From Cyclobacteriaceae bacterium (lineage in GTDB: Bacteria; Bacteroidota; Bacteroidia; Cytophagales; Cyclobacteriaceae), in assembly GCA_026994125.1 (NCBI GenBank), contig JALWRJ010000467.1, positions 1 through 12,471 on the forward strand: a stretch of 12,471 nucleotides of DNA. Direction: 5' to 3'. Shown here piece by piece: positions 2,651 through 7,459 of the stretch. A model generated the notes under the pieces. It worked only from the letters and a program-made list of their open reading frames with translations, searched no databases and was not told the origin of the DNA. How positions within the stretch are numbered: the stretch's first letter is position 1; every line of letters starts with the position of its first letter. The position numbers were made by a program, and so were the translations under genes.

Positions 2651-3151
2651 ATGACTAAAAAACTAATTTTAGTACGGCATGCCAAAACAGAAGAAGGCTC
2701 GGCTGCCTTACCTGATTTTGAACGCAAGCTAACCGACCGGGGTATGCTGGATGCTACCCAACTGGGTAAACACCTGGCCGGGCAAGGCTATCGGCCAAAT
2801 CAGCTATTGAGTAGTGACGCTTACCGCGCCTTAACTACGGCTGAACTAATAGCTTCGCAGTTGAGTTATGAGGTAAGTAAAATATTTAAAAACCATGAAA
2901 TTTACCAGGCATCGGTACGTACTTTATTACAATTGGTTAACGATTTAAAAGATGAATGGGAAATGGTTATGATTGTGGGGCATAACCCTACGGTAACCTA
3001 TTTATCGGAGTACCTTACCGGAAACGAAATTGGCCATATGCCTACCGGTAGTTGTACAATTCTTACTTTTGATGCATCTTCGTGGTTAGAAATTGCCCAG
3101 GGTACCGGTGTGTTAGAAGAATTTGTTATCGCTAAAAATCTATATAATTGA
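2651..3151 (+). CDS. SixA-like histidine phosphatase family protein
   Basis: A 166-residue single-domain member of the histidine phosphatase (phosphoglycerate mutase-like) superfamily. The motif LILVRHAKT has the catalytic RHx with Arg9 and His10. The second conserved Arg is in SSDAYRALTTAE (Arg59), a candidate acid is Glu84 (HEIYQAS), and the second catalytic His is in VGHNPTV (His111). The length and the RHA/SSDAYRA/VGHNP pattern match the SixA subgroup, whose E. coli member dephosphorylates phosphohistidine on signalling or phosphotransferase proteins. The substrate here is unknown. It has no signal peptide, so it is cytoplasmic. Its TGA overlaps the next ATG by one base (TGATG), so it should be translationally coupled to the symporter downstream. 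Confidence 0.9.
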   Translation: MTKKLILVRHAKTEEGSAALPDFERKLTDRGMLDATQLGKHLAGQGYRPNQLLSSDAYRALTTAELIASQLSYEVSKIFKNHEIYQASVRTLLQLVNDLKDEWEMVMIVGHNPTVTYLSEYLTGNEIGHMPTGSCTILTFDASSWLEIAQGTGVLEEFVIAKNLYN

Positions 3152-5265
3152 TGGCTAACCTTGTTTGTTTGAAACAAAGTGTTACAAGTACTTTGTTATT
3201 TTTTAGTATGCTTTTGTGTATAGGGAAGGCGGCTTATGCCCAACACCCTGAAGCAGAGGTGTTTTATTACGGAGCTTTAAAAAACTTTATGCAAAAAGCC
3301 GATGTTTCGGCCAAAGTAAAGTTAGATACCCTGCAAAGCATACCCCATTTATATGCGCTGGGTGCCATGGAAGGCTTACAAGGCGAAGTGCAAATTTTTG
3401 ATGGGCACGCCTACCATTCGGTTAAAGACGGAACCCGTGTACGTATAGATACCAGTTTTGCTCAAAAAGCCAGTTTGTTGGTGGCTGCCCCGGTAAGCAA
3501 CTGGCAGTCGGTTGCCTTGCCCGATAGTGTGCAAACTTACCAGCAATTAGAGCAGTTTATTAAACAATTAATTGCAAATACACACTTAGCAGACACCCCT
3601 TTTCCTTTTAAGATTACCGGTACTGTAAAGTTACTTAATTGGCATGTAATTGATTGGGCCGAAGGGGATAGTGTGCACACGCATCAAAAACACAAAACAG
3701 CCGGACTTACCGGAACAATTGCACAAACCCGGGTAAACATTATTGGGTTTTATTCTACGAAACACAAAGGCATATTTACGCATCAAACCTCTGCTATGCA
3801 CCTGCATTTTAGTACGCAGGATGGTGTATTGGCCGGCCATATTGATGATGTGCAATTGGGCAATGGCATGGAGATGAGTTTGCCTGATACTTCCATATTT
3901 ATGAAAATTCATAATGCGGTGGTAGCGTATGCCAACTGGATTTGGGGAACACCTTTGTTAATCCTGCTCATGGGTGGTGGGTTGTTTTTTGTGGTTTATT
4001 CACGATTTATTCCATACCGGTATTTTTGGCATGCCATTAATGTGTTGCGTGGAAAATACGATACACCGGGCGAAGAAGGCGAAATAAACCACTATGAAGC
4101 CTTATCTACTGCCTTAGCGGCTACGGTAGGTATGGGCAATGTATCCGGTGTGGCGGTGGCCATTACCATGGGTGGCCCCGGGGCCATTTTTTGGATGTGG
4201 ATGAGTGCCATTGTGGGCATGGTTACTAAGTATTTTACCATTACCCTGGCAGTAATGTACCGTGGAAAGGATGACAGCGGAACTCCTCAAGGTGGCCCCA
4301 TGTATGTTATACAAGAAGGGATGGGTAAAAAATGGAGGCCTTTAGGTGTGTTTTTTAGCTTAACGGCCATGGTGGGTGTGTTGCCTATTTTTCAAGCCAA
4401 CCAACTAACCAAGGTTATTAGAGATGTGGTGTTGGTGCCTAATCATTGGGATCAGGGAGCCACCTCCAATTGGATCATTGGTGTTAGTTTAATGGCAATT
4501 GTGGCCTTTGTAATTTTTGGAGGTATAAAACGAATAGCTCAAATTGCCGGTAAACTGGTGCCTTTAATGGTGGTAGTTTATTTTTTATCAGTATTTTACA
4601 TAATACTAACCAATTGGGCAGTGGTACCCAAATCTATGTGGCTTATACTAACAGATGCATTTACGGCAAAATCGGTATTGGGTGGAGCCGTAGGAACCAT
4701 CATTATTATTGGTGCTAAGCGCGCTGCTTTTTCGAACGAGGCCGGCATTGGTACAGCGCCTATGGTGCAAGGGCAGGCTAAAACTAACGAACCGGTACGC
4801 GAAGGGCTGGTTGGCATGCTGGGGCCGGCCATTGATACCCTGGTGGTGTGTACTTTAACTGCTTTGGCCATTATAGTAACTGGTGCCTGGCAAGAGCAAG
4901 GAGTTGATGGTATTACCGTTACGGTGCATGCTTTTAATACGGCTATTCCGTATATTGGTAGCTACCTGCTTTTTTTAGCGGTACTCATTTTTGCCATTAC
5001 TTCTTTGTTTTCGTTATCGTATTATGGCGAAAAAAGTTTGGCATTTTTAATAGGTACCCATAAAGCGCATTTGTACCGGGTAGTGTATGTGCTAAGTATA
5101 GTGTTGGGGGCGGTGGCTTCATTAAATTTTATTATTAATGTAATAGATTCGTTTTATGCCATGATGGCCATTCCTACCATGATTTCGGCCTTGTGGCTGG
5201 CACCCAAAGTTATGCAGGAAACCAAGCGATATTTTGCTAAAATGAAAGACGAAGGAAAACTGTAG
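3151..5265 (+). CDS. Alanine/glycine:cation symporter (AGCS) with an exported acetolactate-decarboxylase-like N-terminal domain
   Basis: A 704-residue two-part protein. Residues 264-704 are a full AGCS transporter (Na+-coupled alanine/glycine uptake, LeuT-like fold). The hallmarks are ALSTALAATVGMGNVSGVA (317-335), QGGPMY (380-385) and FSNEAGIGTAPM (527-538), with about ten hydrophobic helices. Before it are a signal peptide (about 10-30, ending AAYA) and a soluble segment of about 225 residues. That segment resembles alpha-acetolactate decarboxylase: MEGLQGEVQIFDGHAYH (73-89) and MHLHF then LAGHIDD (216-233). The latter gives an HxH (217, 219) and a third His 11 residues on (230), the spacing of the zinc ligands in that enzyme. 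No Arg occurs between residues 98 and 194, so a catalytic Arg expected there seems lost. The ATG at 3151 is chosen; a TTG at 3148 is directly upstream. It is coupled to the phosphatase gene. Confidence 0.9.
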   Translation: MANLVCLKQSVTSTLLFFSMLLCIGKAAYAQHPEAEVFYYGALKNFMQKADVSAKVKLDTLQSIPHLYALGAMEGLQGEVQIFDGHAYHSVKDGTRVRIDTSFAQKASLLVAAPVSNWQSVALPDSVQTYQQLEQFIKQLIANTHLADTPFPFKITGTVKLLNWHVIDWAEGDSVHTHQKHKTAGLTGTIAQTRVNIIGFYSTKHKGIFTHQTSAMHLHFSTQDGVLAGHIDDVQLGNGMEMSLPDTSIFMKIHNAVVAYANWIWGTPLLILLMGGGLFFVVYSRFIPYRYFWHAINVLRGKYDTPGEEGEINHYEALSTALAATVGMGNVSGVAVAITMGGPGAIFWMWMSAIVGMVTKYFTITLAVMYRGKDDSGTPQGGPMYVIQEGMGKKWRPLGVFFSLTAMVGVLPIFQANQLTKVIRDVVLVPNHWDQGATSNWIIGVSLMAIVAFVIFGGIKRIAQIAGKLVPLMVVVYFLSVFYIILTNWAVVPKSMWLILTDAFTAKSVLGGAVGTIIIIGAKRAAFSNEAGIGTAPMVQGQAKTNEPVREGLVGMLGPAIDTLVVCTLTALAIIVTGAWQEQGVDGITVTVHAFNTAIPYIGSYLLFLAVLIFAITSLFSLSYYGEKSLAFLIGTHKAHLYRVVYVLSIVLGAVASLNFIINVIDSFYAMMAIPTMISALWLAPKVMQETKRYFAKMKDEGKL

Positions 5266-5668: not shown

Positions 5669-6640
5669 TTACTCGGCAAAGTCGGGGTTGGTTAAAAAAT
5701 CTTTGTCCGAGAGGGTAAGTAAAAAGGCTTTTAATGCTTGTTTTTCGGTGGTTGTTAGTTGTACTCCACCTTGCGAAAGTTTTTTCATAAGTGGGTCAAC
5801 CGTGATTGTTTTTTGCAGGCCATGGCTGTAAAAATCAATCACTTCGTCTAAGGTGCTAAACCTGCCATCGTGCATGTAAGGTGCGGTGTACTCAATGTTT
5901 CGTAAGGTGGATGATTTAAACTTGCCATAATCTAATGAATCGCCTGTATATGTAAAATAACCCGGGTCGGGCAGGCTATCTAATGCATTGTTGTGCATAA
6001 GGTTATCGCTAAATAAAACCGAACCATGGCAATGAAAACAATCTCCCTTTTCGGTAAAGAAAAGTTCCATGCCTTGCTGTTCTAACGGTGTAAACACTTC
6101 TTCGCCTCGTTGCACTTTATCAAACTTAGAATTGCCAGAAATTAAGGTTCTCAAAAATTGCGAAATGGCTTTTTCAACTTCAACATAGGTTATGTTATCT
6201 ACGTTAAAAGCTTGTTTAAATAAGGTGGGATATTCGGGGTGGTTATTCAGGTTATCTAAATCGGTTTCAAAAAAGTCTTCTACTTCAAACGCAATAATAT
6301 CCTCTACACTTCCTTGTACACGCCCATCCCAGAGCCAATTGTGGTTCCAACCTAAGTTTACATGAGGTAAAACATTGGGTTGCGAAGAAAATGACTTGGC
6401 TTGTATATGGCAACTGGCACAGGCTTGTTGGCGGCTTTTGTGCAAAATAGGGTCGTAATATAATTTTTTACCTAAAGCTACGCCTTCCTTAGTTAATGGG
6501 TTGTCTTCAGGAATAGCCATAGCTGGAAAGCCCCTGGGTATGTTTAGGGTGTAGGGGGCTGGTGTATAAGCGGGTTCTTCGTTGGGTTGGCACCCAGCGA
6601 GAAGCACCCAGAGAACACTATAGTTAAAGAAATATTTCAA
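5669..6640 (-). CDS. Di-heme cytochrome c peroxidase / MauG family, MbnH-like lipoprotein
   Basis: A 323-residue exported protein with two heme c sites, CASCH (74-78) and CFHCH (201-205). Met256 in TAPYMHDGRF sits where the distal ligand or active-site residue of this family lies. The N-terminus has a signal peptide and lipobox LLAGC (Cys17), predicting a lipid-anchored periplasmic or outer-membrane protein. Family members are bacterial cytochrome c peroxidases or MauG/MbnH enzymes that oxidise protein tryptophans through a bis-Fe(IV) state. The MbnH reading rests on the preceding MbnP-like gene. The start is a TTG at 6640 overlapping the TGA of that gene; no ATG keeps the signal peptide, as the first internal Met is residue 41. 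Translational coupling is therefore likely. It is at the short end for the family. Confidence 0.85.
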   Translation of the reverse strand: MKYFFNYSVLWVLLAGCQPNEEPAYTPAPYTLNIPRGFPAMAIPEDNPLTKEGVALGKKLYYDPILHKSRQQACASCHIQAKSFSSQPNVLPHVNLGWNHNWLWDGRVQGSVEDIIAFEVEDFFETDLDNLNNHPEYPTLFKQAFNVDNITYVEVEKAISQFLRTLISGNSKFDKVQRGEEVFTPLEQQGMELFFTEKGDCFHCHGSVLFSDNLMHNNALDSLPDPGYFTYTGDSLDYGKFKSSTLRNIEYTAPYMHDGRFSTLDEVIDFYSHGLQKTITVDPLMKKLSQGGVQLTTTEKQALKAFLLTLSDKDFLTNPDFAE

Positions 6641-7383
6641 TCTACAGGGGCGGGAAATATCACACTAAAAACATCTGCACCATTTTGCTGGGCGGTAGCT
6701 TGGGCATTGGGGTTGTTCATAATGGCAGGGCCCCAATAGTCAAAATCCCATTCGGTAGGGTTTTTAAACCAATTGGCAATATCCATCTGTATTACCATGG
6801 TTAAGCTATCAGTTGCTATTTTTGGGTTGTTAAGTACGTGGTTTACATGTACTTCGTAGGCAGTTTTATTAAGCCCTCCGGTATGAAAATTGTAAAACCC
6901 TGTTGCTTGTTTACTTTTATATTCACCTTCTAATTTCATAAAATGATACCCACCACCTAACACATCGGGCCATGCCATTTCTCTGTCCAAATCAATTCCT
7001 AAACTAGCGGTAATGTTATTTTCGGGCACTAACCCCAACACAAAAGAAACCGAAGAGTATGTGCCCACAGGTATGCTTTGCGAGAGGGTGTAATCCAAGC
7101 TGTTGTTATCATTTATATCTACAAAATGCACATCCGGTAGGGTAGTTGCTACGCCCTTGTTGTCGGTAAACCTAATGCGCGAAATAATATATTTTACTGT
7201 TTTAATACTGTATTGTTGCCCCAGGGCATTGGTGTAACTAAGGCTATTTAATTGCACAGGGGCTCCATCTATCACATGCTTAAACGATATAGATACGGTA
7301 GCCGGAGGGGGAGGTACACTGGTTGAGGTGCAGCTTGTTTGTAAGGCTATGGCAATAATGGATAAAAAAAGTAATTTTCTCAT
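6637..7383 (-). CDS. MbnP-like lipoprotein (putative copper-binding partner of the di-heme enzyme)
   Basis: A 248-residue lipoprotein. The signal peptide MRKLLFLSIIAIALQTSC has its lipid Cys at 18 and is followed by a Pro-rich linker. The body has features of the MbnP family: an Ig-like beta region (VSISFKHVIDGAPVQL...), DREMAWPDVLGGGYHFMKLEGEY (132-154), YNFHTGG (164-170) and a late W-rich stretch (Trp205, 212, 217). In methanotrophs, MbnP binds copper after MbnH converts a Trp to kynurenine. The TGA overlaps the TTG start of the di-heme gene. An in-frame ATG at 7458 is rejected: it would precede the signal peptide by 25 residues and lies upstream of the predicted transcription start (near 7411). 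His-rich surfaces fit metal binding, but function is inferred by family. Confidence 0.8.
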   Translation of the reverse strand: MRKLLFLSIIAIALQTSCTSTSVPPPPATVSISFKHVIDGAPVQLNSLSYTNALGQQYSIKTVKYIISRIRFTDNKGVATTLPDVHFVDINDNNSLDYTLSQSIPVGTYSSVSFVLGLVPENNITASLGIDLDREMAWPDVLGGGYHFMKLEGEYKSKQATGFYNFHTGGLNKTAYEVHVNHVLNNPKIATDSLTMVIQMDIANWFKNPTEWDFDYWGPAIMNNPNAQATAQQNGADVFSVIFPAPVD

Positions 7384-7414
7384 AGCAAAAAAATGTTTAC
7401 TGATGTTGTTACTA

Positions 7415-7422
7415 CAAACGTA
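7415..7422 (-). promoter_or_regulatory. -7 element of the mbnP/mbnH-like operon
   Basis: TACGTTTG on the minus strand matches TAnnTTTG exactly and sets transcription start near 7411, 28 bases before the ATG at 7383. There is no TTG at the -33 distance, as might be expected of an activator-dependent promoter. Confidence 0.6.
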
Positions 7423-7443
7423 ATTTGTTAAGATTTGTTTTAC

Positions 7444-7459
7444 CATGATGCACATCACA
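7444..7459 (-). promoter_or_regulatory. CRP/FNR-like palindrome upstream of the mbnP-like gene
   Basis: The minus strand reads TGTGATGTGCATCATG. It matches eight of ten positions of the CRP site TGTGA-N6-TCACA, and eight of ten of the FNR site TTGAT-N4-ATCAA. Its core TGATG-TG-CATCA is a perfect inverted repeat. Its centre is about 41 bases upstream of the predicted start, the class II activator position. Which family member binds is unknown. Confidence 0.4.

Follow-up and report, generated by a model that had tools for sequence, protein, structure and literature searches.

An exported domain related to acetolactate decarboxylase (ALDC; PF03306) and a complete amino-acid symporter of the AGCS family (PF01235) were found joined in a single protein of 704 amino acids, encoded at 3151..5265 on the forward strand of a 12,471-nucleotide stretch of DNA from a Cyclobacteriaceae bacterium (the whole stretch is referred to as the window). 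Judged from its sequence and that of its relatives, the domain has about an even chance of being a membrane-tethered, periplasmic metal-binding domain and not a decarboxylase.

Architecture and predicted topology of the fusion protein

The fusion gene was recognized by ORF calling and profile matches; its reading frame is open from the ATG at 3151, with an in-frame TTG one codon upstream. Residues 1-30 (3151..3240), which contain a hydrophobic stretch at residues 4-22 and end in AYA before a Q, can be interpreted as a signal peptide of type I, and a scan of this N-terminus detected no lipobox, whereas both other fusions described below have one (LNSC and LSGC). The ALDC-like domain follows at residues 36-246 (3256..3888) and corresponds to the mature form of the stand-alone protein, whose C-terminus is formed by the residues KLP or lies shortly past them. 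The junction of the window copy, SLPDTSIF before Met251 (3877..3903), leads into the complete transporter half, residues 251-704 (3901..5262).

The first-pass annotation of this DNA had described an AGCS transporter fused to a preceding ALDC-like domain and had proposed a profile search of the domain against PF03306. That search agreed with the description, PF03306 matching residues 70-243 of the whole protein (51 bits, E 1.6e-13) and residues 36-246 when the N-terminal piece was searched alone (54.3 bits, cut-off 25), which is far above chance, while PF01235 matched the fusion protein with 405 bits. The transporter half is covered from residue 251 to 704 by TIGR00835 (409.7 bits, cut-off 272.65, positions 1-424 of the 424 in the profile). 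Unfused AGCS proteins start within a few residues of the equivalent of residue 251.

AGCS transporters presumably have a LeuT-type fold, and AgcS (6cse) is taken here to have eleven helices and an N-terminus on the outside. The entire transporter half aligns with AgcS (287 bits, the alignment starting at residue 11 in both); the 453-residue AgcS chain, unlike the window protein, matches this half only and has no room for an N-terminal domain. Hydropathy likewise gave eleven hydrophobic segments after the signal peptide, and the counts of lysine plus arginine per loop, from the first transporter helix onward, are 4, 0, 5, 2, 3, 1, 4, 0, 3, 0 and 5. This alternation predicts that the first helix (residues 264-282, 3940..3996) has its N-terminus outside, that the C-terminus lies inside and that the domain faces the periplasm, as the first-pass annotation had suggested. 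No statement on the topology of AgcS was found in the accessible part of PMC12795558.

Recurrence of the fusion

A profile search with the 704-residue protein as lead row, which scored the 8000 candidates with the most shared words, gave 4921 matches, of which 120 were listed. Among the matches listed were two more proteins combining PF03306 and PF01235. The first, P0122, has 710 aa, is 74% identical to the window fusion and comes from a 3776-base contig; the second, P0123, has 711 aa, is 69% identical and comes from a 4291-base contig. There are thus at least two further fusions, and all three belong to one genus-level AGCS clade. A first, insensitive search for fusions had returned the query only, missing P0010, P0122 and P0123; since it missed known fusions, no uniqueness of the window fusion is claimed from it.

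The junctions of both additional proteins, LPLSQPISIFQ in P0122 and LPVPESIGIFQ in P0123, are free of methionine, the nearest methionines being at 243 and 280 in P0122 and at 244 and 281 in P0123; in each protein one of the two lies ahead of the domain's end and the other within the first helix. As read from these protein sequences, from which a GTG or TTG start cannot be judged, there is no separate ATG start for the transporter at either junction; in the window copy, Met251 is a possible separate transporter start. The two proteins with Met-free junctions establish that the fusion is real. An assembly artefact or sequencing error joining two genes might be suspected because the window comes from a single draft genome and because, of five genomes of the genus, that of the window alone gave the domain, the other four lacking it and two of these being only 81-82% complete, but the different linkers of P0122 and P0123 on other contigs make this very unlikely. 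Conserved residues are, moreover, kept in both reading frames up to the junction, and GC3 is similar in the two halves of the window fusion (0.414 in the domain, 0.428 in the transporter), leaving an artefact with hardly any probability.

Relationship of the domain to acetolactate decarboxylase

Over residues 53-239 the domain resembles the ALDC structure 4bt2 (E 2e-4), the alignment stopping at residue 216 of the 257 of 4bt2, and this similarity, together with that to PF03306, makes an ALDC fold likely. His217, His219 and His230 (3799..3840) stand opposite H194, H196 and H207 of 4bt2, which we take to be its zinc ligands, and Glu79 (3385..3387) stands opposite Glu65, presumably a catalytic-site residue. 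These four residues and EGLQGEVQIFDGHAYH were confirmed in the sequence where the first-pass annotation had placed them, and the alignment agrees with its view that the spacing of the zinc ligands and the glutamate have been kept. Conservation was assessed in 120 subfamily rows, consisting of the three fusions and 117 proteins shorter than 320 aa from the 120 matches listed in the search with the domain only (see below): E79, H165, H205, H211, H217 and H230 are present in 120/120 rows and H219 in 119/120.

Other features separate the domain from the enzyme. His165 (3643..3645) occupies the position of Arg145 of 4bt2, presumably the catalytic arginine, and the only arginines within residues 1-260 are at 96, 98 and 194, so the earlier observations that arginine is absent between 98 and 194 and that the catalytic arginine seems to be missing both hold. 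The Arg145 column has arginine in the three solved ALDCs aligned and in only 2 of 7 other PF03306 proteins (from the 7 of 13 loci with a usable ORF), a comparison set that is mixed or misaligned at this position; the contrast in this residue thus rests on the solved ALDCs. The C-terminal tail of the enzyme, which we assume to bear Glu253, is absent as had been noted, the chain continuing past the last zinc-ligand histidine for 15-20 residues in the subfamily (every tenth of the 120 rows) against 39-47 in the seven other PF03306 proteins. Also unlike 4bt2, the window domain is exported, fused to a transporter and endowed with subfamily-specific residues: Trp164 next to His165, an HxHxKH motif (His176, His178, Lys180 and His181; 3676..3693), and His205 with Phe209-Thr210-His211 (3763..3786), followed at position 212 by glutamine in the window copy and by histidine in 116/120 rows. 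With the NCBIfam equivalog for ALDC, TIGR01252, the domain scores 32.3 bits, under the cut-off of 180.65. On the sequence features compared, the domain is a member of PF03306, yet outside the decarboxylase equivalog.

Stand-alone relatives

A search with the domain only gave 214 matches, the 120 listed being 43-52% identical to it. These are stand-alone proteins of Bacteroidota and other phyla under the name acetolactate decarboxylase, which belong to the same subfamily and share its invariant residues; unlike the window domain, they are encoded by a separate gene, often carry a lipobox-like motif (74 of the 115 homologues starting with Met) and have no transporter. Among the matches listed, 101 continue for 0-3 residues past the aligned end, 16 for 4-7 and three for at least 60; most stand-alone relatives therefore end at the position of the junction, and the fused domain corresponds to an entire stand-alone protein. 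The arginine and the tail are absent from the stand-alone subfamily as well, so these losses were not caused by the fusion. Of the 29 positions that do not vary in 50 other members, the window domain has preserved 28, and of the 34 near-invariant ones it has preserved 29, which argues against a dead domain. The function of the window copy may nevertheless be relaxed, given the glutamine in place of His212, the missing lipobox and a long branch (1.0-1.2) in the domain tree.

The subfamily gene was detected in 21/395 genomes of the phylum, in 64/349 of one family (Flavobacteriaceae, as inferred from named hits) and in 21/198 of another order. Regarding other architectures, PF03306 domains were found together with FmdE (L164, L169 and L170, in which a C-terminal FmdE is attached to more distant PF03306 domains), after a SASA domain (L161) and before a Tll0287-like domain (P0010). 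Another end-to-end fusion is encoded at L249:6164-8236 on the reverse strand, where an amidohydrolase directly follows the same domain in a protein of 690 aa.

Genomic context

Clustering of neighbouring ORFs revealed CusA-, CusB-, CusC-, copper-ATPase-, DUF3347-, HMA- and HYC_CC_PP-like genes near the stand-alone gene, the operon families being checked with Pfam and NCBIfam in one locus, L258. At least one Cus-type metal gene was present in 6/25 loci of set A (the first 25 loci, from which the idea of a metal operon came), in 19/20 of set B (the 20 best loci of the presumed Flavobacteriaceae, taken later) and in 1/18 of set C (20 loci, two of them without a called domain ORF). In the same 19/20 loci of set B the metal gene is a direct neighbour on the same strand; most search seeds came from set B, which makes its figure partly circular, while the controls and the held-out set D are free of this circularity. 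No Cus-type metal genes were detected in the control loci, taken roughly 50-100 kb from the domain gene on its own contig (0/20 and 0/15), or in set D, made up of more distant loci of the same family and including five further domain loci (L330 and L346-L349; 0/25). The result for set D rules out the metal-operon link as a rule for the whole subfamily.

One clade of the domain tree (42 rows, 96 SH-aLRT) has 20 loci, namely these 19 of set B and L153, among which some are almost identical. The fusions sit in the adjoining group of 96 rows, where Cus-type genes were detected in 1/10 loci (L270). The neighbouring clade thus shows a strong metal link, but that of the group containing the fusions is no more than suggestive. 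Cus-type operons are taken to handle copper from the names of their families, and their presence around the genes of the neighbouring clade favours metal handling by the domain. A MerT-like gene overlaps the domain gene in L272, within the fusions' own group. The gene annotated as an acetolactate decarboxylase within the Cus-type operons of L251-L269 (for example L258:7031-7753) is possibly both a misannotation and a new component of metal resistance. The open-licence literature, as covered by titles and the beginnings of abstracts, gave no description of an ALDC-like protein of copper operons, and the word decarboxylase is absent from the main text, as accessible, of a study on copper homeostasis in Bizionia argentinensis (PMC11213822).

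An enzyme of altered chemistry, in which the retained glutamate and histidine site and the additional histidines would act in the periplasm on a derivative of a keto or amino acid and pass the product to the symporter, has to be weighed against the metal-binding reading. Glu79 and the three ligand histidines, kept in 119-120 of 120 rows beside many invariant polar residues, would suit such an enzyme, as would the FmdE, esterase and amidohydrolase partners of related domains and an ORF, presumably aldo/keto-reductase-like, that recurs near the subfamily gene in eight related loci of set C (L275-L281 and L286; cluster 11). The equivalent of Arg145 and the C-terminal tail are, however, absent from all rows examined, the TIGR01252 score is far under its cut-off, and beyond those eight loci no metabolic gene was conspicuous among the recurrent clusters of neighbouring ORFs, a minority of which were compared with Pfam, with no neighbour other than the domain itself recurring in three or more loci of set D. 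We consider this explanation improbable.

Regarding the window itself, no Cus/Cop operon was found around the fusion gene, its neighbours being SixA-like, MbnH-like, MbnP and VIT1 genes and one further ORF, presumably cold-shock-like. An MbnH-like di-heme enzyme (PF03150; TIGR04039 211 bits, below the cut-off of 363), adjacent to an MbnP protein (PF20243, 112.6 bits), is encoded at 5669-7458 on the reverse strand, tail to tail with the fusion gene. The unfused congener locus L041 can be aligned over the MbnH region as well. Beside them, in a metal-rich neighbourhood, lies the gene of a VIT1-type protein (PF01988; 7467-8321, reverse strand), which probably has an N-terminal ferritin-like region.

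Origin of the fusion

The fusion gene is preceded by a gene for a SixA-like histidine phosphatase (PF00300; 2651..3151, forward strand), the TGA stop of which overlaps the ATG of the fusion (tgATG). SixA also precedes AGCS in the congener loci L024, L025 and L041, with 78 bases between the two genes in L025, while a different ORF is found upstream of AGCS in L023. In L041 the slot between SixA and AGCS is taken up by an unrelated ORF of 223 aa (L041:5208-5879) that starts like a lipoprotein and matches no Pfam family, which hints at a variable insertion site. The AGCS proteins of the other genomes of the genus are 80-87% identical to the transporter half of the window fusion.

Three of the 14 rows of one genus-level clade in the AGCS tree are fusions, which lie scattered among unfused proteins; this tree rejects a grouping of all three (AU p 4e-6) and also one of P0122 with P0123 (p 4e-52). 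In the domain tree P0122 and P0123 are sisters (100/100), the three fusions as one clade are neither supported nor rejected (p 0.17), and the window domain with P0122 is borderline (p 0.045), the clades tested having been named after inspection of the trees. Identities among the three fusions are 52.8, 48.6 and 71.8% for the domains and 84.9, 81.8 and 83.4% for the transporters. A single ancestral fusion inherited vertically was ruled against by the AGCS tree. The disagreement between the two trees implies that the domain moved or was gained or lost repeatedly, and transfer at the locus, repeated fusion and repeated loss are indistinguishable as causes of the differing histories. The simplest account would be that a separate gene entered the slot between SixA and AGCS and then lost its stop codon. 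The patchy presence of the domain within the clade argues that the transporter can do without it.

The main rival to the metal-binding reading is a neutral or structural fusion, in which a stop codon was lost between closely packed genes, the domain retains the role of the stand-alone protein, whatever that is, and the transporter merely anchors it, the two activities remaining uncoupled. Such an origin would fit the scattered occurrence in the AGCS tree, the different linker in each copy, the unrelated partners into which like domains run elsewhere (the amidohydrolase of L249, FmdE in L164, L169 and L170, and the Tll0287-like domain of P0010) and the lipobox-like motifs by which many stand-alone members already look membrane-anchored. 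It is less easily reconciled with three fusions that are all in frame and attach the domain to one type of transporter in an identical position, or with the 66 other neighbourhoods searched, which yielded one weak AGCS-like match only (L274, 27% over 137 residues), so that adjacency of domain and AGCS genes is uncommon. A structurally tolerated fusion of this kind is a possibility we regard as real but rather doubtful.

Proposed function of the fusion protein

Under the preferred reading, that of a tethered metal-binding domain, the Sec signal of one polypeptide would export the ALDC-like domain to the periplasm, where a linker of 3-6 residues would connect it to a complete AGCS symporter of the Na+/alanine type, at the outward N-terminal end of that symporter's first helix. 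The domain, as a member of a histidine-rich PF03306 subfamily, would bind a metal (Cu or Zn), and the transporter helix would be its membrane anchor or add to one. Situated at the mouth of the transporter, the domain could possibly strip metal off chelated amino acids or modulate uptake; its coupling to transport is hypothetical. The more specific proposal, that an ALDC-fold metal domain swapped between species in a fixed slot directly gates uptake or removes Cu/Zn from chelated amino acids ahead of their import, is an unlikely one at present.

In contrast to the nearest described architecture that was found, the window fusion combines an ALDC-like domain with a transporter presumed to be of LeuT type. 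That architecture, according to the accessible part of its description, is TAXI-GltS, in which an extracytoplasmic substrate-binding protein is fused N-terminally to a Na+/glutamate symporter, GltS, suggested to be of elevator type (PMC12344293). The two have in common an extracytoplasmic domain at the N-terminus of a Na+/amino-acid symporter and a restricted lineage (PMC12344293). No description of an ALDC-AGCS fusion was found in the open-licence literature, as covered by titles and the beginnings of abstracts.

It is suggested that many of the proteins annotated as acetolactate decarboxylase in Bacteroidota form a separate, histidine-rich, exported subfamily, the role of which is probably other than that reaction, and that one clade of this subfamily travels with Cus-type metal efflux. 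The recurring natural tether between the domain and an amino-acid symporter makes its function testable, and a metal domain that gates or strips, if this is true, would represent a type of accessory domain as yet undescribed among secondary transporters.
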